This document shows, one piece after another, positions 11,784-64,000 of a stretch of 64,000 bases of DNA (the first letter of the stretch is position 1; each line of letters begins with the position of its first letter). The notes under the pieces were generated by a model. The model searched no databases and was not told the DNA's origin. It saw nothing but the letters and a program-made list of their open reading frames with translations. The DNA comes from a virus, in IMG/VR virus record IMGVR_UViG_3300009550_000010, positions 58,500-122,499 of that record. The stretch is one strand, 5' to 3'. The translations under genes were made by a program, and so were the position numbers.

Positions 11784-11807
11784 TATTTAGAAAAACCAGT
11801 ATTTATG
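11784..11807 (-). promoter_or_regulatory. Tandem late-promoter-like motifs before gp18
   Basis: Minus-strand CATAAATA (11807-11800) and CTAAATA (11790-11784), about 54 and 38 nt upstream of the gp18 ATG. The first overlaps the stop codon of the radical-SAM gene. Confidence 0.55.
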
Positions 11808-21822: not shown

Positions 21823-22078
21823 GATTTGGAAATATGCACTCGGATCATTCTCAGACGACAGAACAAAAGAATATGACAATCACATACTTGTCGTACGGTC
21901 TGTTATATTTTTTACCTACCTTATTACTAATTGCTTTATTATTAGCGGAGTAATCCGACACTGGAACGCCAATGAAAAAACTACTGATTGTAACAGGACC
22001 TCAAGGATCGGGGAATCACCTATTCGCTCGACTCTTTTCGATGCACCCGAACGTGATAGGTTGGGAGAGTCTACATGA
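21806..22078 (+). CDS. Small membrane protein with out-of-frame extension
   Basis: 90 aa from the ATG at 21806, which has GAAGGA just upstream; an earlier ATG is at 21785. 'IWKYALGSFSDD' and 'TKEYDN' precede a hydrophobic stretch 'SVIFFTYLITNCFIISGVI' and 'RHW', resembling a small membrane protein I recall from cyanophages. After RHW the frame has no stop and runs 107 nt into the next gene in another frame. A competing frame, 21813-21953, gives 46 aa ending 'YGLLYFLPTLLLIALLLAE', also membrane-like and with a neat stop. I favour the first because of the WKYALGSFSD segment, but only one may be real. Confidence 0.5.
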   Translation: MENAARIWKYALGSFSDDRTKEYDNHILVVRSVIFFTYLITNCFIISGVIRHWNANEKTTDCNRTSRIGESPIRSTLFDAPERDRLGEST

Positions 22079-22589
22079 TAATTATTGGGTGCCTAGTGAC
22101 GAAGAACCATTTGCAAGATACTGGGTATATCCCGAAGAACTAAAGTTTCCAGAGGGAAACTTTTTTTGTGCTAATGTTAGTGTGCCTTTCTTCTATGATG
22201 GAGTAAGACAAACACCCAAAATAAAAGAGGTTGCATACGAAGCAATCAAGCAAGGTGTACAACCTATTATTGCAGTTATTGTTAGAGATAGAAATATAAA
22301 CGAGTTACAACAAGTAAGAGTTGGTGGTGAATGTACATTGGATATTGCTACAGAATATTACAAAGACATCGCATGCCACTTTATAGATCATGAAGCATTC
22401 TTCTTATACAAAGAAAAGTATATTGAGTATCTTGGTCGTTTGTTAGAATTTCCAGTCATAAAAGAAGGCATCGACAACTTTATAAGCGTCGATGCCAACC
22501 ATAAGTATGTCTTTCCCTGCAAGAAGCATTGGTTAGACGATGAGATCCGTAAGGGTCGTAAGACCTTTAAACAACGGCTAGAGGAGTAG
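21972..22589 (+). CDS. P-loop sulfotransferase-like protein, GPQGSGNH type (copy 2)
   Basis: 205 aa. 'KLLIVTGPQGSGNHLFARLF' and 'PIIAVIVRDRNINELQQVRV' parallel the first copy at 21112, as does 'VIGWESLHDNYWVPSDEEPF'. The two are clearly paralogues. Its 3' end overlaps the ferritin-like gene on the opposite strand by 23 nt with no terminator seen between them, so the two transcripts converge. Function is inferred only from the P-loop and the R-D element. Confidence 0.7.
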   Translation: MKKLLIVTGPQGSGNHLFARLFSMHPNVIGWESLHDNYWVPSDEEPFARYWVYPEELKFPEGNFFCANVSVPFFYDGVRQTPKIKEVAYEAIKQGVQPIIAVIVRDRNINELQQVRVGGECTLDIATEYYKDIACHFIDHEAFFLYKEKYIEYLGRLLEFPVIKEGIDNFISVDANHKYVFPCKKHWLDDEIRKGRKTFKQRLEE

Positions 22590-23241
22590 CAGTGTTCTTA
22601 TTGCTGATCTCTATAAGATCTTCTCTCATTCTCTCAACAAGTGAAAGTACACGAGACTGAAGTTCTGCACTACCTTCAACTAATTTTGAAAGTGCACGTC
22701 CACCTAAGTTTGAGTGGAAACCTTCGTCTTTAGCAATAGTTGCATATCTTGTGGAGATGAATCTATCTTCTACACAGTCTGCCATTTCGTTCCATACTGC
22801 TTCTGCTCTTCCTTCTGCTACCAACTGGTATGCAGCAAGTGCAGCAGGGTCTTCTGATGCTTCATACTTCTCAAGAAGTGATGCACCTTTCGCCTGAGGC
22901 TTTTCTGCCTCTGCAGCGAATGCAGCAGCAACGTCAAGCTTTTCGCCTGTGATGTGCTCGATTACTTCCTTTACCATACGGAAGTGCTTTGCTTCGTCCA
23001 AAGCTTGCTTGCTTAGTAATTCTAAGTCTTTTACGTCTGTAGAAGGATCTGCAGAAGCGACCTGACCAGCGATAGCATACATGTTTTGAGCTTCGTTGAC
23101 CATGCGTCCACGGAAGTGCTCAACTAGATACTTATCACTTGGGTTGGAAGCGAAAAAACGACGAACATTTGATTTGGATGTTTCAAATAGTTCTTTGTTT
23201 CCTTCTTTGATCTTCTTTACGAAATCTGTTCCAGAAAGCAT
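22567..23241 (-). CDS. Ferritin-like diiron protein
   Basis: 224 aa from the ATG at 23241, which has AAAGG upstream; a TTG-started frame from 23283 is less likely. Helical throughout. Two E-x-x-H motifs, 'DEAKHF' (Glu83, His86) and 'DEGFHS' (Glu173, His176), with Glu50 ('VNEAQNMY') and Glu143 ('VAEGRAEAVW') make a complete set of diiron ligands in the ferritin/oxygenase order. Such proteins oxidise substrates or store iron. The family cannot be narrowed further by eye. Accessory gene beside the methyltransferase and P-loop genes. Confidence 0.72.
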   Translation of the reverse strand: MLSGTDFVKKIKEGNKELFETSKSNVRRFFASNPSDKYLVEHFRGRMVNEAQNMYAIAGQVASADPSTDVKDLELLSKQALDEAKHFRMVKEVIEHITGEKLDVAAAFAAEAEKPQAKGASLLEKYEASEDPAALAAYQLVAEGRAEAVWNEMADCVEDRFISTRYATIAKDEGFHSNLGGRALSKLVEGSAELQSRVLSLVERMREDLIEISNKNTATPLAVV

Positions 23242-23266
23242 TGTTAATTTACCTTTATCTACGTTG

Positions 23267-23779
23267 TTATTTAGCATAAACAAAAAAGAGTCGTTTATGA
23301 CCCTGTTTCACATGTTCAGTTTCAATACACTTTACAGTATAATTGAAACGTGATGCAATATTATTTATCTTTTTTTCTGTCCATGGATACCAAACTATGT
23401 CACCATAGTCTGCCCAATCATGTGGTATACCAGGATTAACTCTAAATATTGCTTCTTTCCGAAATAATTTATCTATAATTTCCATCTGATTGTCAATCAC
23501 GCTTTCATCACCAAAATTTATAGACCCAAGAGCAAGCACTATATCAAACTTCATAGTGGTACTAAGTTCTTCAAGGGGTAACTTTATGTCAGCACTATTG
23601 TTATATGGATCTACACCTATGAGTTTATGAATTTTTCCTTTGAATTTATTATACCCACATCCAACATCTAAGACACTAGAAGGTTTCTGAGCATTAACAT
23701 AATCGACCAACTGATAGCCAGAATACTCAAGAGATTCAAAATTTTGGTCTTTCCAGATTCCACTAAAATAAGATTCCAT
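23267..23779 (-). CDS. SAM-dependent methyltransferase
   Basis: 170 aa from the ATG at 23779, which overlaps the upstream stop (TAATG). 'PSSVLDVGCGYNKFKGKIHK' is the SAM-binding motif I (D-x-G-C-G), 'LIGVDPYNNSADI' the acidic end of strand 2, and 'FDIVLALGSINFGDE' motif IV. C-terminal strands 'EAIFRVNPGIPHDW' and 'KRLFFVYAK' complete a class I Rossmann fold. The acceptor is not evident. It belongs to a minus-strand group with two P-loop genes, so it may act on the same substrate. Confidence 0.85.
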   Translation of the reverse strand: MESYFSGIWKDQNFESLEYSGYQLVDYVNAQKPSSVLDVGCGYNKFKGKIHKLIGVDPYNNSADIKLPLEELSTTMKFDIVLALGSINFGDESVIDNQMEIIDKLFRKEAIFRVNPGIPHDWADYGDIVWYPWTEKKINNIASRFNYTVKCIETEHVKQGHKRLFFVYAK

Positions 23780-24561
23780 TATGCAAAGTCTATAATATCC
23801 TGACAATTATAAAAACCTATTGAGGTGTCCCAACTAGGTGCTAGTGTCAATGCAGGTCCTATGCAATAGTTTCTTATGTATGCAAGATACTCCTTCTGCC
23901 CATTTGCATCCCACTCAAACCCTAACTTATCTAAGAAGTGTCTAGTTGGACAAGTTATAAAATTTGGTTTTATTGCTTTTCTGAAAAATTGTCTCATTGA
24001 TAGATTATGTTTCTTATTATATTCTTTGAAACTCTCAACATTACGTGGATCATGTTTACCAATCTCCTCATCAGGATCATCCACAACCTGCCATGCTGTG
24101 TACTTAGGATAATTCTTAGCAAATGTCATAGATGTCAACCATCTATCATCACATAGATCTTTATCTCTTAATACAAAGATCATTTTATTATTAGGAAATG
24201 TTTTATCTAACCATTCTAAGTTCTGTTTCTCACAAAAGAAATGGCACTTGACCATATAATTTTGTTCATTATTCACCTCTGCATATGGTTTCAATGCTTC
24301 TTCAATAAAACTTTCTTTGGTATGGTATTTTGGTAGGTCTTGAAATCCTTCACCAAATTCACAACCAGGTCCGCTGAAATGACCTTTGTGTTCAACATAA
24401 TACTTTGTTTGTACTCTCTCCCACCTTTCATCATTGAAATCTGATGTACTGAAATTGAATTTCTTACAACACCTCAATAGAGAATCTATTTTTGCCCACC
24501 CCGAACCAGGTATACCAATAAAGAATACTAATTTTTCAGGATTGAATTGAGAAGATGTCAT
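23779..24561 (-). CDS. P-loop sulfotransferase-like protein, IPGSGWAK type (copy 1)
   Basis: 260 aa from the ATG at 24561. N-terminal 'KLVFFIGIPGSGWAKIDSLL' is a P-loop-like turn, and 'NKMIFVLRDKDLCDDRW' gives the R-D element with a Cys and Trp shared with the next gene. 'GEGFQDLPKYHTKESF' and 'VKCHFFCEKQNLEWL' align by eye with the paralogue at 24536-25282. Similar to sulfotransferases in layout; donor and acceptor unknown. Confidence 0.72.
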   Translation of the reverse strand: MTSSQFNPEKLVFFIGIPGSGWAKIDSLLRCCKKFNFSTSDFNDERWERVQTKYYVEHKGHFSGPGCEFGEGFQDLPKYHTKESFIEEALKPYAEVNNEQNYMVKCHFFCEKQNLEWLDKTFPNNKMIFVLRDKDLCDDRWLTSMTFAKNYPKYTAWQVVDDPDEEIGKHDPRNVESFKEYNKKHNLSMRQFFRKAIKPNFITCPTRHFLDKLGFEWDANGQKEYLAYIRNYCIGPALTLAPSWDTSIGFYNCQDIIDFA

Positions 24562-25282
24562 TACAATTATGAAAAACAAATGGTGCGTCGAACATTGGTA
24601 CTTCTGATTTGAAAAATTGATGTACCATAATCAATTTATCATATTCCTCTTTCCCTTCATCATCCCATCTATAATCTAATAGATCTAAGAAGGTCTTATT
24701 AGGTTGAATTATAAGACACTCATGATCTCTTACAAATTCTCTAATCATTTTATCATGTCTTTTCATAAATGACCACATCTTATTATAATTTTCAGGATGA
24801 TCTCGTATGAATGTATATTTCATCCAAGCCTTGTATGATGGGTATCGACCAGTAAAATTCATGGCAGCATTCCATCCTTCCCAACATAACTTGGTGTCTC
24901 TTAGTACCAAGATAATTTTATTATTAGGAAAATTCTTTTTCAACCAATTAAGGTTCTTTGTCTCTGCAAAGAAATGTGACCTAATAAGATAGTTCTGATG
25001 ATTGATCTCAGTGAATGGTCTGAGGCACTCTGCCTTGAAAGATTCTTTAGTGTGATTCTTTTCAAGATCATCAAACCCATCACCAAATTCCATCATAGGA
25101 TCCCAGAATGCTCCCTTATGGTGAACACACCCAACCCCTTGTTTTCCTGTCTCTTGTCTGTCTTCTCTTCTGTCAGTATTATTGAGATTCAATTTACCAC
25201 AACAACCTAGTAGTAGTGACAGTTTTGCCCATCCACTACCAGGTATTGCAACATAAAAAATCAACTGCTCGTCAGAAATCAC
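24536..25282 (-). CDS. P-loop sulfotransferase-like protein, IPGSGWAK type (copy 2)
   Basis: 248 aa with a GTG start that overlaps the stop of the upstream gene (GTGA). 'QLIFYVAIPGSGWAKLSLLL', 'MEFGDGFDDLEKNHTKESF', 'IRSHFFAETKNLNWLKK' and 'IILVLRDTKLCWEGW' match the downstream copy; the two genes overlap by 26 nt. A tandem duplication that has since diverged. Confidence 0.72.
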   Translation of the reverse strand: MISDEQLIFYVAIPGSGWAKLSLLLGCCGKLNLNNTDRREDRQETGKQGVGCVHHKGAFWDPMMEFGDGFDDLEKNHTKESFKAECLRPFTEINHQNYLIRSHFFAETKNLNWLKKNFPNNKIILVLRDTKLCWEGWNAAMNFTGRYPSYKAWMKYTFIRDHPENYNKMWSFMKRHDKMIREFVRDHECLIIQPNKTFLDLLDYRWDDEGKEEYDKLIMVHQFFKSEVPMFDAPFVFHNCNDIFSIQS

Positions 25283-52760: not shown

Positions 52761-53519
52761 TTATAAGATTCTTGTTTTCTCGTGACCGACTCTGCATTTA
52801 GGATCTATCCATATTTCATAACCTGCTTTGATTGCATCTAGACAGAAAGAAACGTCTTCACCACACATGTCTTGCACCTCTCCTGACTCAAATACTTGCA
52901 TCTGAGGAGCAAACCAAGGGTACTTCATTTCTTTATTCTCAAATACACCATTCTTAATAAGTAACCAACCAAACCCAGTATAATCAACTGTGAACGGTTT
53001 GCGTCTCTTGACAATTCCATCAACCATCTCATGATTCATGACTCCACCATTTTCTTTGAAATCATCTTCTTCCATCCAGTGTGCACATGATGTAGTACGT
53101 CCATCTTCAGTTACATACCATCCACCTGCTAGATCTTTATCCATCCATACAAGACGATAGAACTGTTCGATACCAAATACTATATCACTATCAATCCATA
53201 ACTGATAATCATACTTTAGTTTACCATCCCAAGGTATCTGATCAGGTCCTCGTAATACATTTGCACCAAGACACTTACATCTGGCAAAATTAACCATAGA
53301 TGAATAGTCTTGCGATATTTGAATACTTGCACCCTGCTGCACTAACTCGAAACAGAGAGATACAAAGTTTTTCAAATAGATGTATGATACTCCTCTACCT
53401 GGTAAACAGAAAACTATACTCTTCCCTTTGATAAGAGGTCTAGCATTCTCTATAGAAAATTCATTACTTGCTTCTTCTGGGTTAGGTGCAGAAGATACCA
53501 CCTTGAATCCTTTTGCCAT
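52761..53519 (-). CDS. GT-A type glycosyltransferase
   Basis: 252 aa. 'YQLWIDSDIVF' has a D-S-D metal/nucleotide-sugar motif (Asp110, Asp112), 'GADVLRG'-type loops precede it, and 'MCGEDVSFCLDAIKAGYEIW' with 'VGHEK' (His246) gives the late E-D and His typical of GT-A fold enzymes. 'CLPGRGVSYIYLKNFVSLCF' is the start of the fold. Related genes are found beside baseplate genes in cyanomyoviruses. The acceptor could be a virion protein or host glycan. Confidence 0.75.
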   Translation of the reverse strand: MAKGFKVVSSAPNPEEASNEFSIENARPLIKGKSIVFCLPGRGVSYIYLKNFVSLCFELVQQGASIQISQDYSSMVNFARCKCLGANVLRGPDQIPWDGKLKYDYQLWIDSDIVFGIEQFYRLVWMDKDLAGGWYVTEDGRTTSCAHWMEEDDFKENGGVMNHEMVDGIVKRRKPFTVDYTGFGWLLIKNGVFENKEMKYPWFAPQMQVFESGEVQDMCGEDVSFCLDAIKAGYEIWIDPKCRVGHEKTRIL

Positions 53520-53552
53520 TACAAATGATCGCTGTCAATTCATTATACTGAT

Positions 53553-54158
53553 TTATATAGTCGATGTCAATTTACCTATGATATAATCTGCGACTCTCTT
53601 ATGACCTTCAATATTGAAGTGGCAGAGCGACCTTTTCTTTGTATCGCTATAATAGTATTTTTTATTTTTTCTTCTACCTAATAATGTTTTTTCCCTATCC
53701 ATAATGTTGGAGTTGGCGATTGTCTGCAATTTACCTTTACAATTTCTACTCCAAATATTATCACCGTACACATTATAATATTGTAATAAGAGTAGAGGAA
53801 TATTTTTTTTCTCAAACTCCTGTTCTAAAATGTAACGATTCTTGTAAAAATTCAGTGCACCCACTTCATCATTATAATAATTTTCATAAAAAATAGAATC
53901 CTTAGTAGGGATTAGTTTTTTGTTAAAATGTACTCTCTCACAATGTGTCAACATTATAATTGCATGATCACATATATTATTTTCTAAAAATTCCAATGTT
54001 CGCATTGTAATTAAGTCATTACTTGCACAACCTATAGAGTCATTGAGATGATCTGCTTTGAAATGTTTACTTACTAATGTAGAAAACCTCTGACCCTTAC
54101 GATCATCTAACTCACCTCCAAATGTATAAGAGCAACCATTAAAATACAGAAACATCAT
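53553..54158 (-). CDS. SGNH-like protein (family member 2)
   Basis: 201 aa from the ATG at 54158, overlapping the carbamoyltransferase stop by 20 nt. 'LYFNGCSYTFGGELDDRKGQ' gives the Ser block, 'GCASNDLITMRTLEF' the Asn block and 'HFNIEGHKRVADYIIG' the late His. The 'IMLTHCERVHF' segment replaces the usual Q-x-T-x3-R-x-E. Basic, Tyr/Asn/Lys-rich, as in its relatives. Substrate unknown. Confidence 0.78.
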   Translation of the reverse strand: MMFLYFNGCSYTFGGELDDRKGQRFSTLVSKHFKADHLNDSIGCASNDLITMRTLEFLENNICDHAIIMLTHCERVHFNKKLIPTKDSIFYENYYNDEVGALNFYKNRYILEQEFEKKNIPLLLLQYYNVYGDNIWSRNCKGKLQTIANSNIMDREKTLLGRRKNKKYYYSDTKKRSLCHFNIEGHKRVADYIIGKLTSTI

Positions 54159-55530
54159 ACTTCTCCGAAAATAGTTCTGCATCTTCCCATGTATTCACCA
54201 TAGGTTTTCCCTTTATGTTTAATGAAGTATTCAACAATACAGGACAATCTGTTCTTCTATACCACTCCTCCAGTATGGGTCTCAGGATGCTCTCCGATGT
54301 CTCAGGTACCGTTTGTACTCTCGCACTATTATCAACGTGTATACAAGCAGGTATCGCCTTTGGTTGCTTACACTGATAGACATAGGACATGTATCTCGAA
54401 TGGGAAGGCATATCAAAGAAGTCCTGACAATGCTCCTCCAAAACCGCAGGTGCAAAGGGTCTGAACTTCTGTCTCTTTTTGATCTCATTTACTCTGTCTT
54501 TGTTTGCAATTTTCCTCGGATCCGCCAATAGACTTCGATTACCGAGAGCACGAGGACCAAACTCAGCACGGCCATTTGCAACGCCAGCGATTCCTTTTTC
54601 GATGAGGCAGTCAACTATTTCCCTTGGATTACAGTAATGTTGTATATTATATCCCAAGTAGGGAGAGAATTCAACCTTGCCACCATATGATAGCAATGCT
54701 GCTCCTAAAGCACCACCTGCGTCACCAGGATTCGGCATGATCCACATATTGTACATTTCCCTCAAACCAGTGTTGCAAACACAGTTGAGTGCCACTCCTC
54801 CACCATAACAAATGTTCTCACTGTACTTTGCTGCTCTTGCGAATATCTCATTGAGTTCTAATTGCAGTATACGCTCTGCACTCTTTGCAATATCAAACTT
54901 ATCGTAAGACTCAGGTATCTTTACACCCTTATGACAATTCTGATGCCTCAGTCTCTCCACCACGTTCATATAAACAGGATTACCATATGCTGCCATACCC
55001 ATAAAGATATATTCTTCATCTAAAGGTCTAAGACCTGCCCATTTGGTTAATGCACTATACCACAGTCCAATAGAGTTGGGATATCGCTGCGACCAGACTT
55101 TTTTATACTTCGCCTTACCTTCTACCATCTTTGCAGTCCATATAGACGTACAATCCCATTCTCCGATACTATCAATGACTACACATGCTGCTTCTTCAAA
55201 TAAAGATGTCTGAAACGCTGCTGCAGCGTGAGAAAGGTGATGTGGGAAATATTGAGTCGGTTTGAGTCCTAAATGTCGTTCACTGAAAGTTGTACTGTAT
55301 TGACCTGCATAAAACTGTCTTGTTTTCTTCAAAAGCGGTTTTTCGTAAAAAGCAATGTCATCATTACCTTCATGCATATTAAATATCTGTGCAGTGGCAG
55401 ATGCAGTGCAATCTAAGTTGCGATCATGTTTTTTCTTGGAATATCGTTCTGAATGTGTTGCAAAACGTATTTTGCCATCGTTTACAACAGCAATTGCAGA
55501 ATCGTGGAAACCTTCGCTAAAACCAATCAT
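54139..55530 (-). CDS. Carbamoyltransferase, NodU/CmcH/TobZ type
   Basis: 463 aa. The Kae1-like N-terminal domain has 'GFSEGFHDSAIAVVNDGKI', 'FPHHLSHAAAAF' (metal-binding His97, His98, His101), 'CVVIDSIGEWDCTSIWT' and 'CYGGGVALNC'. The C-terminal domain begins 'VANGRAEFGPRALGNRSLLA' (residues 318-337), the signature of O-carbamoyltransferases that use carbamoyl phosphate and ATP to carbamoylate sugars. It ends at 'GKPMVNT' plus 13 residues, shorter than bacterial NodU (about 560-600 aa). It is coupled to SGNH genes on both sides. Confidence 0.92.
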   Translation of the reverse strand: MIGFSEGFHDSAIAVVNDGKIRFATHSERYSKKKHDRNLDCTASATAQIFNMHEGNDDIAFYEKPLLKKTRQFYAGQYSTTFSERHLGLKPTQYFPHHLSHAAAAFQTSLFEEAACVVIDSIGEWDCTSIWTAKMVEGKAKYKKVWSQRYPNSIGLWYSALTKWAGLRPLDEEYIFMGMAAYGNPVYMNVVERLRHQNCHKGVKIPESYDKFDIAKSAERILQLELNEIFARAAKYSENICYGGGVALNCVCNTGLREMYNMWIMPNPGDAGGALGAALLSYGGKVEFSPYLGYNIQHYCNPREIVDCLIEKGIAGVANGRAEFGPRALGNRSLLADPRKIANKDRVNEIKKRQKFRPFAPAVLEEHCQDFFDMPSHSRYMSYVYQCKQPKAIPACIHVDNSARVQTVPETSESILRPILEEWYRRTDCPVLLNTSLNIKGKPMVNTWEDAELFSEKYDVSVF

Positions 55531-56171
55531 AATAACTTCATTATATCAGATGCAATCATGATATGCCCAAGTTTATTGGGGTGATTACCTTTTGCTCGTG
55601 GATATTTGGATTTATTCAACTGCAAATCAAAAGGCATCTTAGTTCTCTTGTTTATAGTCATCATTATGTGAGGAATCGACATATTTGTCAACTTGTTTTT
55701 TATAAGATGAAAAAATAGCATTTCATCAGACTCACCATACTTATCATGGTACAATTCCTCGTAATATCTAATCCACCACTCTTTTCCATCCATAATATTC
55801 CCAGTGCTCATATAATGTTCTTTATCAACCATAATACTGTCCCACTCTGACTGTATTTTTGGTTCTCTACGATATCTTACATTAGGATAAAGTTTTTTTT
55901 GTATATTTCTCTTATACCTTGTTGCTGTACCTCTTTTATCGTACCATTCAGTTCTACTAGGGTGTGTCATTTGGGCAAGGACTAAATCAAACTCTGAAAT
56001 ATCACTTTCTAAAAATCTTCTTGCAATACCGTGATTTGATAAACCATTCCAACCTAAATTTGTGACTTCTGCGTTTATTCTACGACCTACAAGAGTACTG
56101 AAACACTCTTTGGATCTATCATTCAGTTCATCACCATTTGTCCAACTACATCCTATTGTTAATAATTTCAT
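55527..56171 (-). CDS. SGNH-like protein (family member 3)
   Basis: 214 aa. 'KLLTIGCSWTNGDELNDRSK', 'GWNGLSNHGIARRFLE', 'LVLAQMTHPSRTEWY' and 'GNHPNKLGHIMIASDI' are the four family blocks. Its stop overlaps the carbamoyltransferase ATG (ATGA), so the two proteins are probably made together. Its start overlaps the next SGNH gene by 26 nt. Confidence 0.82.
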   Translation of the reverse strand: MKLLTIGCSWTNGDELNDRSKECFSTLVGRRINAEVTNLGWNGLSNHGIARRFLESDISEFDLVLAQMTHPSRTEWYDKRGTATRYKRNIQKKLYPNVRYRREPKIQSEWDSIMVDKEHYMSTGNIMDGKEWWIRYYEELYHDKYGESDEMLFFHLIKNKLTNMSIPHIMMTINKRTKMPFDLQLNKSKYPRAKGNHPNKLGHIMIASDIMKLL

Positions 56172-56685
56172 GAATCTTATTTGCGATGACTTTGTGCCCT
56201 ATTGTAGTCGGATGTCGAGTTTCATCCATTGGAAAATTCAAATCAAAGATATTCAGGTCAAATTTCTTTGATTTAGTGAACTTATCCGTTGTTACTATTA
56301 TACATGGTATATTGTTGATTGCAAAGTAATCTCGAAGTCCTTCAATAGCGAAATTTTCTTCACAGTCACCATATACATCATCATACATGTTCTCATACCA
56401 ATATTTCCATATCTTCTTTCTCTTTTCTGTCAATCTCTTATGATTGAGTGCAATACCAATCTCAACCCACTTTTTTTCGTCATGATACTCATGTCTTGAA
56501 CGGGATGTCAATTGTATAATCGCTAAATCGTAATTTTTAGGACTTTCTTCGATAGTTGTTCTCCATATAGAGCGATTACTATAACCAACCATAGCAATGT
56601 TGGTTAATTCGGCATTTAACCTACTTGCAAGAAATTTTGGATAGTCTCCAGCAGCAAATGACGAACCGTTAGAAAATATTTTCAT
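56146..56685 (-). CDS. SGNH-like protein (family member 4)
   Basis: 179 aa from the ATG at 56685; a TTG frame from 56700 is less likely. 'MKIFSNGSSFAAGDY' has G-S-S in place of G-C-S, then 'GYSNRSIWRTTIEE', 'LAIIQLTSRSRHEY' and 'TRHPTTIGHKVIANKI'. The 17-nt overlap with the upstream SGNH gene suggests coupled translation. Confidence 0.78.
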   Translation of the reverse strand: MKIFSNGSSFAAGDYPKFLASRLNAELTNIAMVGYSNRSIWRTTIEESPKNYDLAIIQLTSRSRHEYHDEKKWVEIGIALNHKRLTEKRKKIWKYWYENMYDDVYGDCEENFAIEGLRDYFAINNIPCIIVTTDKFTKSKKFDLNIFDLNFPMDETRHPTTIGHKVIANKIHEIINNRM

Positions 56686-57283
56686 AAACTTCTTTTGCAA
56701 TCATCTGATGACCCCTTTTATTAGGATGACCAGTAACATAGTTCTCAGGATGCCACCTTTTACCACCCAATAATTCTCTTACGTTCATTATTGGTTCTTT
56801 ATCGCATAATTCAGACCATGATGAATTATTATATGAACCCAATTTTTTTATATTCTGTATACAGAGGAAAAAGTATCTTATATTTCTTTTTTTAAAATAA
56901 TTCTCTAATAAAAATTTGTTTTTATGAAAATTTGCAAAATCATCATCAACATTTTGAAAATTCCTGTAATATTCCAATGATCCTTCGTCTTGATTTTCGG
57001 CAGTGATGTGAAAATACTTTTTTCTACCTTTTTTCAACAATTCTCTACGAGAAAATTTGGTAAATTGAATTACTGCAATAGATACTGGATTTTTTTCACA
57101 AAATTCTAAAGTAGTCCTTAATATTCCATCATTACTCTTACCGCATTCACCAATACTTTTATAAATGCGAGGTTTTGCACCATCCCTTAGTCCCATTCTG
57201 GCGACTAGATGAGGATAAGCGTCTTTTTCGGGATTTTCAAGTTCATCACCATAGGTAAATGAACATCCATCAAATAATATCAT
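56669..57283 (-). CDS. SGNH-like protein (family member 5)
   Basis: 204 aa. 'MILFDGCSFTYGDELENPEK', 'GKSNDGILRTTLEFCE', 'IAVIQFTKFSRREL', 'NFHKNKFLLENYFKKRNI' and 'TGHPNKRGHQMIAKEV'. It is very close to the SGNH protein at 14907-15542 in the terminase operon, including the 'FHKNKFLLENYFK' stretch, so one is probably a copy of the other. ATGA overlap with the gene upstream. Confidence 0.82.
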   Translation of the reverse strand: MILFDGCSFTYGDELENPEKDAYPHLVARMGLRDGAKPRIYKSIGECGKSNDGILRTTLEFCEKNPVSIAVIQFTKFSRRELLKKGRKKYFHITAENQDEGSLEYYRNFQNVDDDFANFHKNKFLLENYFKKRNIRYFFLCIQNIKKLGSYNNSSWSELCDKEPIMNVRELLGGKRWHPENYVTGHPNKRGHQMIAKEVYENIF

Positions 57284-57879
57284 CTAAATGACCTTTGTTT
57301 TATGTGATTGATAATGTCTTTCGCAAGAAGATTGTGTCCTAATGAATTTATATGCCCTCCACCATTGGGTTTTTCAGTCGGATATCCATCTATGACAAAA
57401 TCATAATCGATATCTATCTTTGAATTGGGTACAGAAAGAAAGATGAGAGGAACACCCTTTGATTTACAAATACTTTTGATATTATTATACACCATTCTCT
57501 CATAAGCGTTAGCTTGTGTCTCAGAATAGATATTCATGTAGTAGTCTTTCCAAAATCCTTGGTCTATAGAAGACCTATACTTTGGATTTCCAACATAACC
57601 AGGATTTACTTTCATCCACTTCTGTTTTTTGTCAGAATACCATTCAGTTCGATTGCGAAATGACATCTGAATGACCACTAGGTCACACTCATCCAAAAAA
57701 TTATAGTTATCAACAGAAATATTCCTAAGAATTCGTAAATTACTTGCCCCTGACCTCGAAAAATTATATTCTTCCGCTTGAAAATGCTCTGATACCTTTC
57801 TACTGTACCTTTGTGTCTCATAATCTCTCAAATATCCCTTTCCTTCAGTGAAAGAGCATCCATCAAAATAAAATTTCAT
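57280..57879 (-). CDS. SGNH-like protein (family member 6)
   Basis: 199 aa. 'MKFYFDGCSFTEGKGYLRDY', 'SGASNLRILRNISVDN', 'LVVIQMSFRNRTEWYSDKKQ' and 'GGGHINSLGHNLLAKDI'. The Q-M-S-x3-R-T-E-W segment and 'WMKVNPGYVG' resemble the protein at 58586-59134 ('NRTEYYIDGKWENINPG'). ATGA overlap with the upstream small gene. Confidence 0.8.
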   Translation of the reverse strand: MKFYFDGCSFTEGKGYLRDYETQRYSRKVSEHFQAEEYNFSRSGASNLRILRNISVDNYNFLDECDLVVIQMSFRNRTEWYSDKKQKWMKVNPGYVGNPKYRSSIDQGFWKDYYMNIYSETQANAYERMVYNNIKSICKSKGVPLIFLSVPNSKIDIDYDFVIDGYPTEKPNGGGHINSLGHNLLAKDIINHIKQRSFR

Positions 57880-58034
57880 TCAAAATGGGGTTTTACAATC
57901 ACTTGATCTACAGTATAGCACGATTTTACTCCTGCTTTGATCATTTGTTGAAATGTTACTCGTTTTTTTTCTGCTTCCTCTTCAGAAAGGTGATCAAAAA
58001 CGAGTTTTTTGTCTAAGTAAACGTCAAAATCCAT
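57876..58034 (-). CDS. Small conserved phage protein, paralogue of 52557-52730
   Basis: 52 aa from the ATG at 58034; a TTG start at 58070 is unlikely. 'MDFDVYLDKKLVFDHLSEEE' parallels 'KYDIYVGEEKVHSSITEEEM' of the gene at 52557, but the C-terminal half differs ('KSCYTVDQVIVKPHFE'). Overlaps the next ATG (ATGA). Function unknown. Confidence 0.7.
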   Translation of the reverse strand: MDFDVYLDKKLVFDHLSEEEAEKKRVTFQQMIKAGVKSCYTVDQVIVKPHFE

Positions 58035-58106
58035 GTTTTGCCAAAATTCGAGTAAACCTTGATGCCACAAACACCATTAAAGTCACTTTGTAGTCATCGG
58101 GGGTCT

Positions 58107-58505
58107 TCATTTACCATTACTAATTACAATTCGGGTCTTACAACCCTTAGAACCTCGTACTAAACGCTTTTTAGGACCTTCAGTCTTGACTCTTTGCCAC
58201 TCTTTTATTCTATCATAGCGATCTTCTGTGAAAAAGTACTGTTTGATGTACCATTCTTCCCAGTTTTTATGACCTTTATGACGATTACACTCTTCACAGC
58301 AACAAATACAGTTAGGTGTCTCGTGTCTGCCCCCTAGAACTTGGGGATGAATGTGATCTAAGGTCATTTGATCACGATGTTCTCCACAATATGCACAAAC
58401 ATGGTTCCATTTCCCCTTTATATCGTCCTTCCATCTCTTCTTTGCCTCTGATCTCGTTTGTGCCTTCATCTGATACAGGTATTCCTGTGGAGAAGCGAGT
58501 AGCAT
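58107..58505 (-). CDS. HNH endonuclease
   Basis: 132 aa. 'HVCAYCGEHRDQMTLDHIHP' holds the first zinc Cys pair (Cys37, Cys40) and the catalytic Asp50-His51; 'CCEECNRHKGHKNWEEW' supplies the second Cys pair (Cys70, Cys73) and the final Asn/His. A McrA-type HNH fold. It may be a homing endonuclease that helps spread the accessory genes around it, or act in DNA cutting. No clear Shine-Dalgarno is seen at 58505; an ATG at 58469 (MKAQTRSEAKKRW) is an alternative start. Confidence 0.9.
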   Translation of the reverse strand: MLLASPQEYLYQMKAQTRSEAKKRWKDDIKGKWNHVCAYCGEHRDQMTLDHIHPQVLGGRHETPNCICCCEECNRHKGHKNWEEWYIKQYFFTEDRYDRIKEWQRVKTEGPKKRLVRGSKGCKTRIVISNGK

Positions 58506-58585
58506 ATGTTCTATGTGTGTGTTCTAACTTATATATGCTCTACTCTTCGTAAATATATGGGTCTTCCCTACGTAATTTCCACATT

Positions 58586-59134
58586 TTATAGCGGAAACGT
58601 ATCGCTTTTATTAAACGTTTCATAGATTCGGTGTGTAAGTATTCGATGACCAACCCTGTCAGGGTGTTTTGTTGCACCTAAAGGGATGTCAGGAGTATTT
58701 AGTTGCACATCATAACCGTATTTTGAATCTTTAGAGTTTGTTAAGAGTAACAATTCTGTATTATTTGCTGCAAAATGATCGATGATTGCCTGTCGAAACA
58801 TAAATTCATCACTTTCGCCTAATTCTTCACTATAATAGTCTCTATAGTAGTCTAAAAACTTCCTTCCTTTGCCTCTACCAGGATTAATATTCTCCCATTT
58901 CCCATCAATATAGTATTCTGTTCGGTTTTTATACGTCATTTGTATGACTCCAAGTGAAATATTACTCAAATCTTGCTCAATTGTCTTTCGATATATCTTT
59001 CGATTGCTACAACCTGCCTCTGATATGTCTATATAATCTTCATTCCATCTCTTTGCAAGTAGGTTTGCAAACCTTTCGTCTCTATTTTCAAGATTAGCAC
59101 CGTATGTCCACGAGTCCCCATTAAATAAAATCAT
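58586..59134 (-). CDS. SGNH-like protein (family member 7)
   Basis: 182 aa. 'MILFNGDSWTYGANLENRDE' has the classical G-D-S, the only copy here with Asp in that place; then 'AGCSNRKIYRKTIEQD', 'LGVIQMTYKNRTEYYIDGKW' and 'ATKHPDRVGHRILTHRI'. A good ribosome site (AAGGGA) precedes the ATG. First gene of the minus-strand SGNH block, divergent from the plus-strand sulfotransferase genes. Confidence 0.82.
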   Translation of the reverse strand: MILFNGDSWTYGANLENRDERFANLLAKRWNEDYIDISEAGCSNRKIYRKTIEQDLSNISLGVIQMTYKNRTEYYIDGKWENINPGRGKGRKFLDYYRDYYSEELGESDEFMFRQAIIDHFAANNTELLLLTNSKDSKYGYDVQLNTPDIPLGATKHPDRVGHRILTHRIYETFNKSDTFPL

Positions 59135-59172
59135 TCGATCCCTTCATAGTATAATTAAGTAGAGGTTCTTTC

Positions 59173-59193
59173 AACGGTAACACCGTTATTTAG
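59173..59193 (-). promoter_or_regulatory. Hairpin and late-like motif in the divergent region
   Basis: AACGGT-AAC-ACCGTT (59173-59187) forms a 6-bp stem with a 3-nt loop. It abuts minus-strand CTAAATA (59193-59187), about 53 nt upstream of the SGNH ATG at 59134. There is no T run, so it is not a terminator; an operator or leader hairpin is possible. Confidence 0.5.
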
Positions 59194-59219
59194 ACTTCCA
59201 AATATTTCACAAATGTTTA

Positions 59220-59248
59220 TTGAATTTTTGTTTCAGTTATGCTATGAT
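59220..59248 (+). promoter_or_regulatory. Sigma70-like promoter of the plus-strand cluster
   Basis: TTGAAT (59220-59225), 17-nt spacer, TATGAT (59243-59248), about 52 nt before the ATG at 59301. Early-type promoter by host RNA polymerase. Confidence 0.7.
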
Positions 59249-59300
59249 AAAAATTTATCTATCTTTATAATCAAATGATACACCTTATAGTAAGATAACT

Positions 59301-60248
59301 ATGAAACCTAGATTCCACATGCATCCTGGTGTTGGATGGGCAGCAACCACGCCTTTCTATTACACATTACAGCATTTGAATCGCTATATGACAACAGGTG
59401 TCAATAAAGAAGTTCAATACTGGGCATTAGCATCAAGAGAAAATACATTTGACTTTCATAGGTATAAAGCAAAAAGAATATCGAATGCATTACACCAAAC
59501 TGGTTTAAAAATCAAGAAACCACCTCTTGCAAAAAAATTACATCAAAATGTCTTTACAAAATCGTGGTTAGAGAGATGGTATACCCCACCGTTTACTGTC
59601 GAAAATTACTTATCATATTATACTCTTCTCAATGACCATAAAGATGACTATGCTGCTGTTGGTGATTTTTCAACCAATAATGTTGATATACCTGATGTAT
59701 TCTTATGTTCGATTGCTGAGAAACTACTTGAACACTTTGATGTCAAAGTAACGATTACATTTGCAGACCCCATCACCCGTTTCTACTATGAAGTCGGTAG
59801 ATTATGTGGTATGAGGCAATATGGCACACTTGCTGCTCTTGGAAAACAACAGAAATTATTTAAGAGTTATATTGATAGTAAAAAATTTGAAAGCAGTGTC
59901 TTCGACAGACATAATGTAGACTATGCACAAACTTACAACAAATATTGCAAGGCATTTGGTAAAGATAATGTATTACCTATCATCATGGAAGAGTTTTGGG
60001 AACCAAAGAAAGAGAAAGAACAAAAAGAGAGACTATCAGAATTCATAAGTTATAGAATAGATAAAATATCACCAAATTTCTTTTGGCCACTGTCACATGC
60101 AGATGATACATATCTTTTAGATCAATCCAAAAGTGTCAATGAACCACTGACACCCGAACTGATTAAATATGCAAAAGAACCCATGAAACACTTTTATGAT
60201 GATTGGGCAAAAGTTCTTCCGATGCCAGAATCATGGAACTATGATTGA
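59301..60248 (+). CDS. Sulfotransferase-like protein, GWAATTP type
   Basis: 315 aa. 'HPGVGWAATTPFYYTLQHL' near residue 8 corresponds to the sulfotransferase P-loop that binds the PAPS 5'-phosphate. 'YAAVGDFSTNNVDIPD' and 'KVTITFADPITRFYYEVGRL' fit the later region where R-D-P-x2-R holds the 3'-phosphate; here Arg-Asp is replaced by Ala-Asp, which may weaken PAPS binding. 'NVLPIIMEEFW' and 'LSEFISYRIDKI' are shared with the two following copies. It overlaps the next gene by 8 nt. Confidence 0.78.
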   Translation: MKPRFHMHPGVGWAATTPFYYTLQHLNRYMTTGVNKEVQYWALASRENTFDFHRYKAKRISNALHQTGLKIKKPPLAKKLHQNVFTKSWLERWYTPPFTVENYLSYYTLLNDHKDDYAAVGDFSTNNVDIPDVFLCSIAEKLLEHFDVKVTITFADPITRFYYEVGRLCGMRQYGTLAALGKQQKLFKSYIDSKKFESSVFDRHNVDYAQTYNKYCKAFGKDNVLPIIMEEFWEPKKEKEQKERLSEFISYRIDKISPNFFWPLSHADDTYLLDQSKSVNEPLTPELIKYAKEPMKHFYDDWAKVLPMPESWNYD

Positions 60249-61194
60249 TTTCTTATTAAATGCAGGGACTGGTTGGTCTGCAACCACACCTTTTTATTTT
60301 ACTCTTGCTAAACAGCAAAAGTATTGTCATAGTGGGCATCAAAAGGAGATGGGTTATCTCAAACTCATGAGTAAGAAGTCAAAACAAGATATATCAACTT
60401 ATAAGCAAACTATACTTGATAGAACAAGATCTAATGAAGATTGGATCAAAATGGTTGACAATAGAGAGTTTGTATCAAGAGAAGAGACAGAAGAATTACT
60501 CAAACCTCCTTATACCATTGATAGGTATATTGATTACTACCTCAGACTACACGAAAAGACAAAAGGCACCTATCAGGCGGTGGCAGACTTCACAAACTAT
60601 AACTTTGAACTACCAGAAGAGTTTCTAATGGAGTGGAGAGATAAGATGTCTCAACACTTCAACGTAAAAGTCACCTTTCAGTTTCGTGACCCGATTCGTC
60701 GCTATTTCTCTGAGGTTGGTAAGTTTATTCAGCACCCTCTTATACTAACAGGTATTGATTCTCATAAGATCAAGCACAATGCCTATGTTAAGTCAAAGCA
60801 GCATATCAAACTCTTTCGTCACTACATCTCATCATATCCTATCTTCCCACCTGCATACTATACACAGAACATTCAGAAGTTTGTGAGAGTTTTCGGTCAA
60901 GAGAGAGTCTTGCCGATCATTATGGAGCAGTTTTGGAATCCAGAGAGACAAGCAGAACAATGTGAGAGACTTTCGAGATTCCTAGACTATAAGATTACAA
61001 AGATACATGAGAATGTCTATTACCCCGACAGAGGAACCAAAGCACCACATTACGTAGGTCTCAAAGATCAATCTGGTAGTGACTTCGAGGACATGACTCC
61101 TGAGTTATACGAATGGTCTAAACAGTATCTGGGTTTTGTATATTCAGACTGGGAGAAATGTTACGAAACCCTACCAGAGGAATGGAATCGTTGA
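60241..61194 (+). CDS. Sulfotransferase-like protein, GWSATTP type
   Basis: 317 aa from the ATG at 60241, which overlaps the upstream stop. 'LNAGTGWSATTPFYFTLAKQ' (P-loop), 'YQAVADFTNYNFELPEEFLM', 'KVTFQFRDPIRRYFSEVGKF' (complete R-D-P-x2-R with Ser/Glu following), 'ERVLPIIMEQFWNPERQAEQ' and 'DYKITKIHENVYYP' mark a full-length member. The stop lies in the -35 of the next promoter. Acceptor unknown. Confidence 0.82.
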   Translation: MIDFLLNAGTGWSATTPFYFTLAKQQKYCHSGHQKEMGYLKLMSKKSKQDISTYKQTILDRTRSNEDWIKMVDNREFVSREETEELLKPPYTIDRYIDYYLRLHEKTKGTYQAVADFTNYNFELPEEFLMEWRDKMSQHFNVKVTFQFRDPIRRYFSEVGKFIQHPLILTGIDSHKIKHNAYVKSKQHIKLFRHYISSYPIFPPAYYTQNIQKFVRVFGQERVLPIIMEQFWNPERQAEQCERLSRFLDYKITKIHENVYYPDRGTKAPHYVGLKDQSGSDFEDMTPELYEWSKQYLGFVYSDWEKCYETLPEEWNR

Positions 61195-61219
61195 CAGGTA
61201 GTAAAGAATACTTTATAAT
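61191..61219 (+). promoter_or_regulatory. Consensus sigma70 promoter
   Basis: TTGACA (61191-61196), 17-nt spacer, TATAAT (61214-61219): both hexamers match the consensus exactly. The -35 overlaps the TGA of the upstream gene. It starts a transcript at about 61226 with a leader of about 245 nt before the next ORF. Confidence 0.85.
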
Positions 61220-61225
61220 AAAAGA

Positions 61226-61387
61226 GTAACGACGGTTACGTCGGGAGTGACTGAATAATCTTTCTGGCAAATGCTGGATAAGGTGATGAGACACAGGTGG
61301 TGCTGCTTCGAGAGAAGAATCGATTTACCAATCGGGTCTCAGGCAAGAACGTTTTTACTCTGTAGTAATGCCCGTTCTTTATTGGTA
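61226..61387 (+). ncRNA. Candidate structured leader or small RNA
   Basis: No convincing gene lies between 61195 and 61469 (275 nt). Hand folding gives CGACG/CGTCG with a 4-nt loop (61230-61243); TGAGAC (61287-61292) closing with GTCTCA (61336-61341) around two inner hairpins, CTTC-GAGA-GAAG (61306-61317, GNRA loop) and CGATT-TACC-AATCG (61321-61334); then AAGAACG (61345-61351)/CGTTCTT (61373-61379) with inner TTACT/AGTAA. The TACC loop can pair with GGTA at 61384-61387, a pseudoknot. Candidates include cyanophage/marine RNAs such as wcaG, manA or Downstream-peptide motifs, not confirmed here. Confidence 0.55.
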
Positions 61388-61469
61388 TACAGGAACCCAA
61401 TCTCCCTTTTTTCCTCTTTTCATGATGGGACGTTGTTGATTAGAGGAACCCTTTTTTATTTGGAGAGTT

Positions 61470-61559
61470 ATGCCTTTATTTCTAATTGTACTCGGAGCAT
61501 CTGGATTGGGTGCTACTCTTGCACTATACATACTTCGTAAGTACGATCCTCACGCATGA
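61470..61559 (+). CDS. Small membrane peptide, 29 aa
   Basis: MPLFLIVLGASGLGATLALY, then ILRKYDPHA. One transmembrane segment with a positively charged end. GGAGAG lies 4 nt before the ATG, and its TGA overlaps the next ATG (ATGA), so it is coupled to the sulfotransferase gene. It is the first ORF after the structured leader. TCTCC at 61401-61405 could mask the ribosome site. Function unknown. Confidence 0.72.
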   Translation: MPLFLIVLGASGLGATLALYILRKYDPHA

Positions 61560-62683
61560 AGAAACCTACATTGTGTATGTTAGCAGGGCATGGTTGGTCT
61601 GCAACCAGTCCTTTATACTACACTTTGGCACACAACCATAATTATTGTCATGGTGGACACTATAAAGAAAATAAGTATCTAGAACATATCTATCATTATA
61701 ATAGAGGAGATGAAAAGTTACTAAATGAAAAAAGATTTAGATTTCGCCAACTCTTCAATGGTTTAAAGAGAGATCAAGAAGACGGTCCAAAAGCAATGAC
61801 ATTTGGTGAGAGAGATAGACCATCTACAGTATTACATACAGGTGGACCTAATGCTCATTGGGATCCAGAATTTGTAAATGATTTCTTTTCACTACCACAT
61901 ACCTTTGAAAAGTATATTACTTACTATAAGAAACACTACGAAGCAATCAAAGATACTTATTCAGCAGTTTCCGATTTTACTATCAATAATATCTACAAGC
62001 CTGAATCTTTTATAAACATAACTGCTAGGTATCTAAAACCACATTTTAATGTCAAGGTATTGATGATATATCGTGACCCTGTTCAAAGATTATGGTCAAA
62101 TATACAATTTACATGGTTTCAAAAAAATAAACATAGAGGATGTGTTGACCCATATCATATGTTCTGGAGAAAGATAGCACATCATTACGATGATCCGAAA
62201 GAAAAAGACTATGACTTAAATGTTATCGAAGCTTACACAGAAGGGTATCGAAGATGGAGTAATGCTTTTGGTAAAGAGAATGTTCATAACATAGTCATGG
62301 AAGAGTTGTGGAGTGAGGATAAAGATATCGCTCAAAAGTCAAAGAGAGAGTTATCAGACTTTTTAGAGTATGAAGTTACTGACCTGTTTGCAAACTGTTT
62401 TGTACCTGAACAGGGCTCTAAAGCACCTCATGTTGAACATCTCTCAGATCAATTTATGAGTAATCAAGTTGATCTGTCAGAAGAACAACTCAACACTGCT
62501 AGAGCTTTGATGGATAGAGCATATCTTAGATTTGAGGAAATGTATGGTTATATTCCAAAAACATGGACAGAACTCAAGAGTGTGGAAGTACCAGATCTAA
62601 CTAATCCAAATGATTATGATATCGAGGAGGTATTGAGAAGAGATCCATTATCAGGTCCTCAAAAACTTTCTGATTATAAATGA
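61556..62683 (+). CDS. Sulfotransferase-like protein, GWSATSP type
   Basis: 375 aa, the largest of the group. 'CMLAGHGWSATSPLYYTLAH' (P-loop), 'YSAVSDFTINNIYKPESFIN', 'KVLMIYRDPVQRLWSNIQFT' (R-D-P-x2-R, then Ser), 'VHNIVMEELWSEDKDIAQKS' and 'FLEYEVTDLFANCFVPEQGS' follow the same plan as the upstream copy. An insert after residue 70 and a C-terminal extension add length. ATGA overlap with the SGNH gene that follows. Confidence 0.83.
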   Translation: MKKPTLCMLAGHGWSATSPLYYTLAHNHNYCHGGHYKENKYLEHIYHYNRGDEKLLNEKRFRFRQLFNGLKRDQEDGPKAMTFGERDRPSTVLHTGGPNAHWDPEFVNDFFSLPHTFEKYITYYKKHYEAIKDTYSAVSDFTINNIYKPESFINITARYLKPHFNVKVLMIYRDPVQRLWSNIQFTWFQKNKHRGCVDPYHMFWRKIAHHYDDPKEKDYDLNVIEAYTEGYRRWSNAFGKENVHNIVMEELWSEDKDIAQKSKRELSDFLEYEVTDLFANCFVPEQGSKAPHVEHLSDQFMSNQVDLSEEQLNTARALMDRAYLRFEEMYGYIPKTWTELKSVEVPDLTNPNDYDIEEVLRRDPLSGPQKLSDYK

Positions 62684-63420
62684 AACTTATCACACTTGGA
62701 TGTAGTTGGACATTTGGTATCGGGTGTGGATATGAAAGAGGTGAGAATATAAAACAATACAAAGCACACTGTACAAGTGAAGAGAATGCTAACAAGTATT
62801 CTTTTCGTGCTCTATTATCAGAGAGACATGGGTACATTAACCATAATCTCTCAAGAGGTGGGTCAAGCAATCAAATGCAGTTTCGGAAAGCGACCAAGTA
62901 TTTCACAGAGCGTCCACAAGAAAAAACTATAGTCTTATGGGGAATCACTTCAACCGCCCGTAATGAAGTCTTTCTGGCGAAACATCATATACTCAAAAAT
63001 ATTGCTTATAATACCATGTATCGAAAGGTCAATGCAGTGGAGTATGCCGAGAACTTCTACAATCATGAACACGAGGTGAAGATACTCGCACAACGAATGC
63101 TTCACTGGAATCTCTTCTTTGAATCACTGGGTATAGAGAACTATTGGTTTGATACATTCAATACTCACAAGTACCCTTACGAAATACCAAGACTTCTACC
63201 AGTAGACCTACTCACTCGTATGACAGTTGAGGATCAGACATACCATGAGTCAACATGGCAACCAATAAACGAAATTACTGGAGAGACAAAGAAAACCACT
63301 GAAAGAAGAATACAACTGGGTGTTATCAAAAGTTTACTCAACCCTCACTCAAAACATCCTACCAAGAAGGGTCATGCTATGATAGCAGATATATTTGACA
63401 AATGTCTAAACCTAAGTTAA
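62680..63420 (+). CDS. SGNH-like protein (family member 8)
   Basis: 246 aa, the longest and most divergent SGNH copy and the only one on the plus strand. 'KLITLGCSWTFGIGCGYERG', 'RGGSSNQMQFRKATKYF', 'IVLWGITSTARNEVF' and 'SKHPTKKGHAMIADIF'. An insert lies at residues about 100-200. It is sandwiched between two sulfotransferase-like genes with overlaps on both sides (4 and 19 nt). Confidence 0.8.
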   Translation: MKLITLGCSWTFGIGCGYERGENIKQYKAHCTSEENANKYSFRALLSERHGYINHNLSRGGSSNQMQFRKATKYFTERPQEKTIVLWGITSTARNEVFLAKHHILKNIAYNTMYRKVNAVEYAENFYNHEHEVKILAQRMLHWNLFFESLGIENYWFDTFNTHKYPYEIPRLLPVDLLTRMTVEDQTYHESTWQPINEITGETKKTTERRIQLGVIKSLLNPHSKHPTKKGHAMIADIFDKCLNLS

Positions 63421-64000
63421 CTCTTATTGGTGGATATGGTTGGGCAGCAACTTCTCCTCTCATGTATACTCTTCAAAGGAATGCCAAGTATACTCATTTT
63501 GGTTATACAAAACATTTTAGATACTTAGGAAATCAATCAGACAAGGAAAAGAAGAAGGTATCTTATATCTACAACAAGGTTTGCAATGGGACTTGGGAAA
63601 ACTTCATGAGTGAAGAACCAGGCACTCATCGAATGAATCTAACGAGGGATCTTGAACCTCTTTATGATTTTCCTCGTAAACACTTTACTCAACTTATCAC
63701 TGGTAATCCTACTATCTCTAAGTACATGGATTACTATCATGCACTTCATGATCATGTCATCTCCAAGGGTTATAAGTCTGTAGGTGATGGTTACTCAGGT
63801 TATCAATACTACAGAAAAGAGTTTAGTCAATTCTATCGGATACTTATGTCTGAGTTTGATGTCAAGTTTCTCGTGATTGTCAGAGATCCTGTTCGTCGTG
63901 CTTTCTCAAATTATCTTGCTAAAGTTCAAAAGTCTACAGACCGAAAACGTAAAAATCTACCACTACCATTCAAAGTTAATGATTATATAAAAGATCTAAA
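63402..64000 (+). CDS. Sulfotransferase-like protein, GWAATSP type, partial
   Basis: Starts at the ATG at 63402, overlapping the SGNH gene by 19 nt, and runs off the window; 199 residues are seen. 'LTLIGGYGWAATSPLMYTLQ' (P-loop), 'YKSVGDGYSGYQYYRKEF' and 'KFLVIVRDPVRRAFSNYLAK' (R-D-P-x2-R, Ser, Tyr) match the sulfotransferase plan. C-terminal part outside the window. Confidence 0.8.
   Translation, partial: MSKPKLTLIGGYGWAATSPLMYTLQRNAKYTHFGYTKHFRYLGNQSDKEKKKVSYIYNKVCNGTWENFMSEEPGTHRMNLTRDLEPLYDFPRKHFTQLITGNPTISKYMDYYHALHDHVISKGYKSVGDGYSGYQYYRKEFSQFYRILMSEFDVKFLVIVRDPVRRAFSNYLAKVQKSTDRKRKNLPLPFKVNDYIKDL

Follow-up and report, generated by a model that had tools for sequence, protein, structure and literature searches.

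Why should a phage carry, beside its baseplate genes, a crowd of genes for enzymes that resemble sulfotransferases and SGNH hydrolases? The question is raised by the last part (53.5-64 kb, here called the island) of a 64,000-nucleotide stretch of virus DNA, the window, which represents positions 58,500-122,499 of a linear phage contig of 122.5 kb from IMG/VR (IMGVR_UViG_3300009550_000010). An earlier reading of the window, made from the sequence only, counted eight SGNH-like and eight P-loop sulfotransferase-like genes, accompanied by carbamoyl-, glycosyl- and methyltransferase genes, and proposed a paired expansion of the two families serving one modification system with a shared substrate. 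The open reading frame (ORF) positions in the window agree with those of that reading. Having followed it up, we lean, with modest confidence, towards seeing the island as a cassette by which a T4-like cyanomyovirus would tailor glycans in the cytoplasm, adding or altering sulfate, carbamate and acyl groups.

The island and its border contain the following features:

52761-53519, minus strand: T4-GC102 (phrog_1574, E 6e-114), probable GT-A-like glycosyltransferase; core cyanomyovirus gene bordering the island
53542-53570, minus strand: sigma-70-like promoter of 52761, TTGACA-17-TATAAT (12/12 match)
53553-54182, minus strand: SGNH-like enzyme (paralogy; SGNH profile E 8e-49)
54139-55530, minus strand: putative O-carbamoyltransferase of NodU/TobZ/NovN type (Pfam 5e-51; PDB NovN 1e-46)
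55527-56171, minus strand: SGNH-like enzyme (paralogy and SGNH profile)
56146-56700, minus strand: SGNH-like enzyme (paralogy and SGNH profile)
56669-57283, minus strand: SGNH-like enzyme (paralogy and SGNH profile)
57280-57879, minus strand: SGNH-like enzyme (paralogy and SGNH profile; weak Pfam Lipase_GDSL_2)
58107-58505, minus strand: HNH endonuclease within the island, probably homing-type (phrog_2214 E 4e-29; present in 11/52 related loci)
58586-59134, minus strand: SGNH-like enzyme, first gene of the minus-strand array (paralogy and SGNH profile; Lipase_GDSL_2 E 0.011)
59301-60248, plus strand: family A sulfotransferase homologue, possibly inactive or altered (paralogy; 3'-phosphate Arg and Ser replaced by Ala and Tyr; dN/dS 0.22)
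60241-61194, plus strand: predicted family A sulfotransferase (paralogy; family A profile E 3e-114)
61556-62683, plus strand: predicted family A sulfotransferase (Pfam Sulfotransfer_1 E 2.7e-4; paralogy and family A profile)
62680-63420, plus strand: SGNH-like enzyme (paralogy and SGNH profile)
63402-64000, plus strand: predicted family A sulfotransferase, truncated where the contig ends (paralogy and family A profile)

The phage itself can be placed by its major capsid protein, gp23, which is 87.6% identical to that of Marine virus AG-345-D19 and 74-76% identical to those of Synechococcus and Prochlorococcus myoviruses; this closeness to cyanophage myoviruses makes it, on sequence grounds, a cyanomyovirus-like T4 relative (Kyanoviridae), uncultured and marine. 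Plate AG-345 derived from an 'extracellular' sort gate (PMC6122165), for which reason AG-345-D19 is regarded as one virus particle obtained by sorting. Elsewhere on the contig, two small genes resembling hli and one resembling talC (L003-L004, contig 52.9-53.5 kb; L002, near 17 kb) fit a cyanobacterial host.

The claim of eight SGNH-like genes was borne out: their products make up one paralogous family, being mutual homologues in an all-against-all BLASTP comparison of the contig proteins (down to 2e-55), and the family profile finds, in the PDB, a GDSL protein as its best match (E 3.6e-4), along with a phage tail-associated lysin, peptidoglycan O-acetyltransferase B (PatB) and thioesterase I. 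The nucleophile Ser of block I, a G-x-S near the N-terminus, is kept in 204/210 sequences, and the catalytic His of block V, ahead of a G-H near the C-terminus, in 192/210; among the eight proteins of the window the G-x-S is invariant. In the same comparison the P-loop genes 59301, 60241, 61556 and 63402 emerged as mutual homologues (family A). The sole significant match of a family A profile (59 sequences; hmmsearch against the PDB) is the sulfotransferase 3rnl, at E 3.5e-8, followed by heparan-sulfate 3-O-sulfotransferases at E 0.009-0.016; Pfam Sulfotransfer_1 reaches E 1.4e-6 in family A relatives, and no Pfam match rose above cut-off for the family A proteins of the window. The motif for the 3'-phosphate, Arg-x7-Ser, retains its Arg in 202/207 and its Ser in 198/207 sequences, and the distance of eight residues between them is the same in known sulfotransferases. 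We can thus confidently predict family A to be of the type that uses 3'-phosphoadenosine 5'-phosphosulfate (PAPS), with the proviso that 'works like a PAPS-dependent sulfotransferase' stands better than strict membership. For the second of these genes the ORF caller gave a start at 60196; orthologues carry a stop ahead of 60241, and the latter start, that of the sequence-only reading, is therefore the correct one.

Identification of the carbamoyltransferase (54139) was upheld by its Carbam_trans N (1e-33) and Pfam Carbam_trans_C (5e-51) domains. Its closest relatives of solved structure, NovN (1e-46), GdmN and TobZ, are sugar and natural-product O-carbamoyltransferases; the role in nucleotide synthesis given to the carbamoyltransferase in a published cyanophage annotation (PMC9146016) is thus unsupported here. 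Ratios of nonsynonymous to synonymous substitution (dN/dS) are 0.05-0.08 for this gene, 0.15-0.26 for family A and, once a single near-identical pair with hardly any changes is set aside, 0.11-0.34 for SGNH; such values indicate that the genes are maintained by purifying selection.

To see how regularly these families keep company, we took loci from IMG/VR in four sets, centred on family A, on SGNH and on two further P-loop families, B and C, described below, made them non-redundant and scanned them with all four profiles; the SGNH loci were collected with a closer subset of that family, a wider SGNH alignment being too diverse for the scan. SGNH genes were found at 37/45 family A loci (34 of the 38 of at least 9 kb), and family A genes at 28/50 SGNH loci (22 of the 29 of at least 9 kb). 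SGNH density near family A was 2.06 per 10 kb, as against 0.02 and 0.00 in the same-phage control loci of B and C, respectively. Among 52 non-redundant loci with both SGNH and family A, the carbamoyltransferase is present in 44, T4-GC102 in 44, and gp25 and gp6 in 41: the island has a fixed location. The expected co-occurrence across phages therefore holds for SGNH with family A, in both directions of search and in a single-particle genome, and fails for B (1/49 loci with SGNH) and C (0/15). In that genome, AG-345-D19, the carbamoyltransferase is followed by two SGNH genes and then by a family A gene in a divergently oriented block; this layout, the same as in the window, speaks against an artefact of metagenome assembly. 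Neither SGNH nor family A was found in five cultured cyanophages (P-SSM2, S-SSM7, Sf-CH5, S-T4, S-SRM01); in S-SSM7, P-SSM2 and Sf-FS3 the GC102-gp25-gp6 block is present, and the place of the island is taken by small ORFs or oxygenases. Pattern scans gave no relatives in cellular genomes, a weak negative. Other recurrent genes of these islands, absent from the window, encode an HpcH/HpaI aldolase (L256:690-1451; 9 loci) and a 350-residue protein of unknown family (L071:8966-10015; 20 loci).

Within the island, adjacent genes have real short overlaps, for example of 4 nt at 55527/55530, 57280/57283 and 62680/62683. Over the 52 loci, SGNH and family A form separate tandem arrays, usually divergent: among neighbours coupled by a gap of less than 60 bp, 39 pairs are SGNH-SGNH, 54 are family A-family A and 12 are mixed, where shuffling of labels leads one to expect about 50 mixed couplings (for either order, 0/2,000 shuffles were as low as observed). 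The idea of a paired expansion consequently had to be abandoned, 93 couplings being within a family and copy numbers not moving together, and with it that of alternation as a general pattern, the mixed series 61556-62680-63402 being an unusual one. Nor are the arrays products of recent tandem duplication, for paralogues inside one locus are old and diverged (median identity about 31-35%). With their closest counterparts at other loci they share 75-86% identity (medians), and the two figures together point to an old, diverged repertoire exchanged between phages.

Promoter content was examined for hints of timing. The late motif of these phages, NATAAATA (PMC2984593), has 12 copies in the window, all on the minus (late) strand and most of them just upstream of virion genes, with none in 52.5-64 kb; in relatives it precedes gp25 in 34/41 cases and island genes in 10/310 upstream regions, so that late-promoter control of the island is unsupported. 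Strong sigma-70 promoters are also rare at island genes (5/310). The minus-strand promoter of T4-GC102 at 53542-53570, just before the late gp25 promoter, is matched at 11/12 positions or better in 32/44 relatives (shuffled mean 8.3). Island expression thus appears, from these motifs, not plainly late.

The remaining P-loop genes, and the eighth SGNH gene, lie apart from the island:

14907-15542, minus strand: isolated SGNH-like paralogue amid virion genes, upstream of terminase (E 2e-55 with 56669; SGNH profile)
21112-21822, plus strand: family B P-loop protein at a separate locus, probably sulfotransferase-like (AlphaFold model of paralogue 21972)
21972-22589, plus strand: family B paralogue (paralogy; AlphaFold model, PDB fold match)
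23779-24579, minus strand: family C P-loop protein at a separate locus, possibly sulfotransferase-like (paralogy; fold match of paralogue)
24536-25282, minus strand: family C paralogue (Sulfotransfer_3 E 1.2e-4, below cut-off; model pLDDT 86; TPST2 E 9e-3)

BLASTP shows 21112/21972 (B) and 23779/24536 (C) to be clear paralogue pairs. Attempts to join A, B and C as one family found no significant relation by BLAST, hidden Markov model or hhalign, with profile-profile probabilities below 3%. The best PDB match of the AlphaFold model of 21972 (predicted local distance difference test score, pLDDT, 88) is a tyrosylprotein sulfotransferase (E 4e-5; template-modelling score, TM, about 0.50), and that of 24536 (pLDDT 86) is TPST2, a weak match (E 9e-3, TM 0.40); kinases are also listed for both. 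From these models family B is a probable, and family C a possible, sulfotransferase. The eight sulfotransferase-like genes of the sequence-only reading are in this way resolved into three families that cannot be joined (4+2+2): nothing was placed outside the sulfotransferase fold, the assignment being secure for A and depending on weak TPST matches for B and C. The B and C loci sit between tail-fibre-like genes; being elsewhere and without SGNH co-occurrence, B and C need not share the island's system. Of the accompanying genes, the methyltransferase (23267) is a weak match (E 0.038), and the glycosyltransferase (52761, T4-GC102) keeps a weak similarity to a glycosyltransferase PHROG (E 1.5e-4), with no PDB profile match found; T4-GC102 occurs in 104 phage records, among them isolates that lack the island.

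Several other features of these loci may be recorded here. A fourth sulfotransferase family (L205:5897-6853), with Pfam Sulfotransfer_2 above cut-off and a galactose-3-O-sulfotransferase PHROG, is present in the same islands, at five loci. The lone SGNH paralogue at 14907-15542, in the virion gene block and far from any family A gene, is conserved in relatives at 64-99% identity. Between the B and C pairs, beside the methyltransferase-like gene, 22567-23283 (minus strand) encodes a helical protein weakly matching the diiron PaaA_PaaC family. Overlapping radical-SAM-like and SPASM-like ORFs (11803-12435 and 12396-12665, minus strand) lie between tail sheath and terminase genes, and a radical SAM/SPASM homologue lies inside the related island of L198 (6671-7771).

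How might the island work? The island proteins have no N-terminal hydrophobic segment or signal peptide and so would act in the cytoplasm. A search for APS (adenosine 5'-phosphosulfate) kinase that was positive in 11/14 control genomes, a cyanobacterium included, gave no such gene in these phage records; phage-made PAPS is thus set aside, and host PAPS would supply the sulfate for family A. The carbamoyltransferase would carbamoylate sugar hydroxyls, and the SGNH proteins would take off O-acyl groups or transfer them. The acceptor would most likely be a glycan or glycoconjugate to whose synthesis both host and phage enzymes contribute, and each paralogue would probably have its own acceptor specificity, diverged copies being swapped among phages at this fixed site. 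SGNH, sulfotransferase and carbamoyltransferase may then share a substrate, as first proposed.

Some observations weigh against this reading. Block III of the SGNH family, G-x-N-D, is absent, with Q-x-T-x3-R-x-E in its place, which is why we write 'SGNH-like' instead of canonical SGNH hydrolase; and the 5' loop of family A, GxGW[SA]AT[ST]P, has Trp or Phe where the usual 5'-sulfate loop has Lys or Arg. In either family the chemistry could differ from that predicted. In the 59301 copy the 3'-phosphate residues Arg and Ser give way to Ala and Tyr, and its product may be inactive or altered, although the gene is under purifying selection (dN/dS 0.22). SGNH and family A copy numbers are uncorrelated (Spearman 0.08), which weakens the case for a strictly joint pathway. 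The contig's glycan cluster, comprising GT2, GT11 and GT25 glycosyltransferases, epimerases, an aminotransferase and a mannose-6-phosphate isomerase-like gene, lies outside the island, at contig 1.4-17.7 kb. (The glycan cluster begins with four tandem paralogues, L002:1450-4656 in contig positions, that are probably glycosyltransferases; the one tested had no Pfam match.)

The fixed site adjoining the baseplate genes gp25, gp6 and gp7 (41/52 loci) could mean that the glycans modified are those of baseplate and tail-fibre proteins, with effects on adsorption or shielding of the particles, and the best matches of B and C, themselves between tail-fibre-like genes, are to protein-tyrosine sulfotransferases. 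Given the scarcity of NATAAATA upstream of them relative to gp25, however, the island genes are not clearly co-expressed with those of the virion, and adjacency may reflect merely a tolerated insertion site; we think such decoration of the virion unlikely, though worth bearing in mind. Cytoplasmic enzymes without late promoters would suit instead a remodelling of the host envelope, in which lipopolysaccharide (LPS) or exopolysaccharide intermediates are changed during infection so as to block superinfection or defence, and large LPS clusters are indeed known in cyanophages (PMC3037559), as is a glycan cluster on the present contig. A lytic phage would benefit only briefly from an altered host surface, which leaves this a possibility, still a doubtful one.

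A tolerated site might also simply collect 'stuffer' or selfish cargo with no coherent pathway, as the HNH endonuclease within the island, the variable content and the uncorrelated copy numbers would allow; but purifying selection, retention of active sites, conservation of carbamoyltransferase and SGNH across loci, and co-localisation far above that in same-phage controls all speak against it, and we hold it to be improbable. We give equally little credence to the tailoring of a small diffusible molecule, such as a lipid or natural product, in place of a polysaccharide: the carbamoyltransferase relatives with structures do act on small antibiotics, and sulfotransferases and SGNH enzymes frequently act on lipids, but the island has no synthase gene and the contig has genes of polysaccharide type. 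Glycan tailoring in the cytoplasm is thus the reading that we retain.

Sugar-modifying clusters of cyanophages have long been known without proof of function, as 'functional or stuffer DNA' (PMC3037559). A conserved, selected island with predictable chemistry (sulfate, carbamate, acyl) makes function directly testable by mass spectrometry. If glycan tailoring is true, ocean viruses make sulfated glycans, which would matter for how hosts are recognised, for superinfection and for the pool of sulfated polysaccharides in the sea. Two phage protein families missed by PHROGs and NCBIfam are also named here, neither database giving a match for the window proteins of SGNH and family A that were tested.

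Set beside known enzymes, family A resembles the PAPS-dependent carbohydrate sulfotransferases (Sulfotransfer_1/3, heparan-sulfate 3-O-sulfotransferases, PDB 3rnl) in its profile match and 3'-phosphate motif, and differs in a 5' loop without the usual Lys/Arg and in the lack of an above-cut-off Pfam match in the window proteins. The SGNH family shares Ser and His motifs, and PDB GDSL and PatB matches, with SGNH/GDSL enzymes, DUF6071 (PF19547), which matches 13/64 of its members, and PatB; unlike these, the phage proteins are without the block III GxND and appear as stand-alone, cytoplasmic proteins of 180-260 residues encoded in tandem arrays. As for whole clusters, the LPS/glycan clusters of P-SSM2, S-SSM7 and S-SM2 (Sullivan et al. 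2010, PMC3037559) likewise belong to T4-like cyanomyoviruses and consist of clustered, variable sugar-modification genes with NodU/Nol-like carbamoyltransferases. They sit near hli03 or phoH, whereas SGNH and family A arrays make up the present island, whose place is next to T4-GC102-gp25; comparison with the P-SSM2 LPS cluster for the same genes at the same place was negative. The hyperplastic region that cyanomyoviruses carry between g15 and g18 (Millard et al. 2009, as described in PMC2984593) is similar as variable cargo in a structural module, and dissimilar in position and gene content. Glycan clusters and Nol-like carbamoyltransferases have thus been described in cyanophages before (PMC3037559); the gp25-adjacent SGNH and family A island, mostly unannotated, appears to be a further form of such clusters. 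Literature searches of open-access text did not find this island, its two array-forming families or their wide conservation in uncultured phages.

In Nod-factor tailoring, the carbamoyltransferase NodU, the sulfotransferase NodH and the acetyltransferase NodL work on one glycan. The island would offer the same trio of chemistries, with no Nod backbone genes seen, so that the likeness is one of analogy. We suggest, tentatively, that a modular code of sulfation, carbamoylation and acylation is swapped beside gp25, so that every phage would have its own form of decorated glycan, carried by the particle or by the host; such a code might, as speculatively, be a virus's equivalent of the tailoring of O-antigens or Nod factors.

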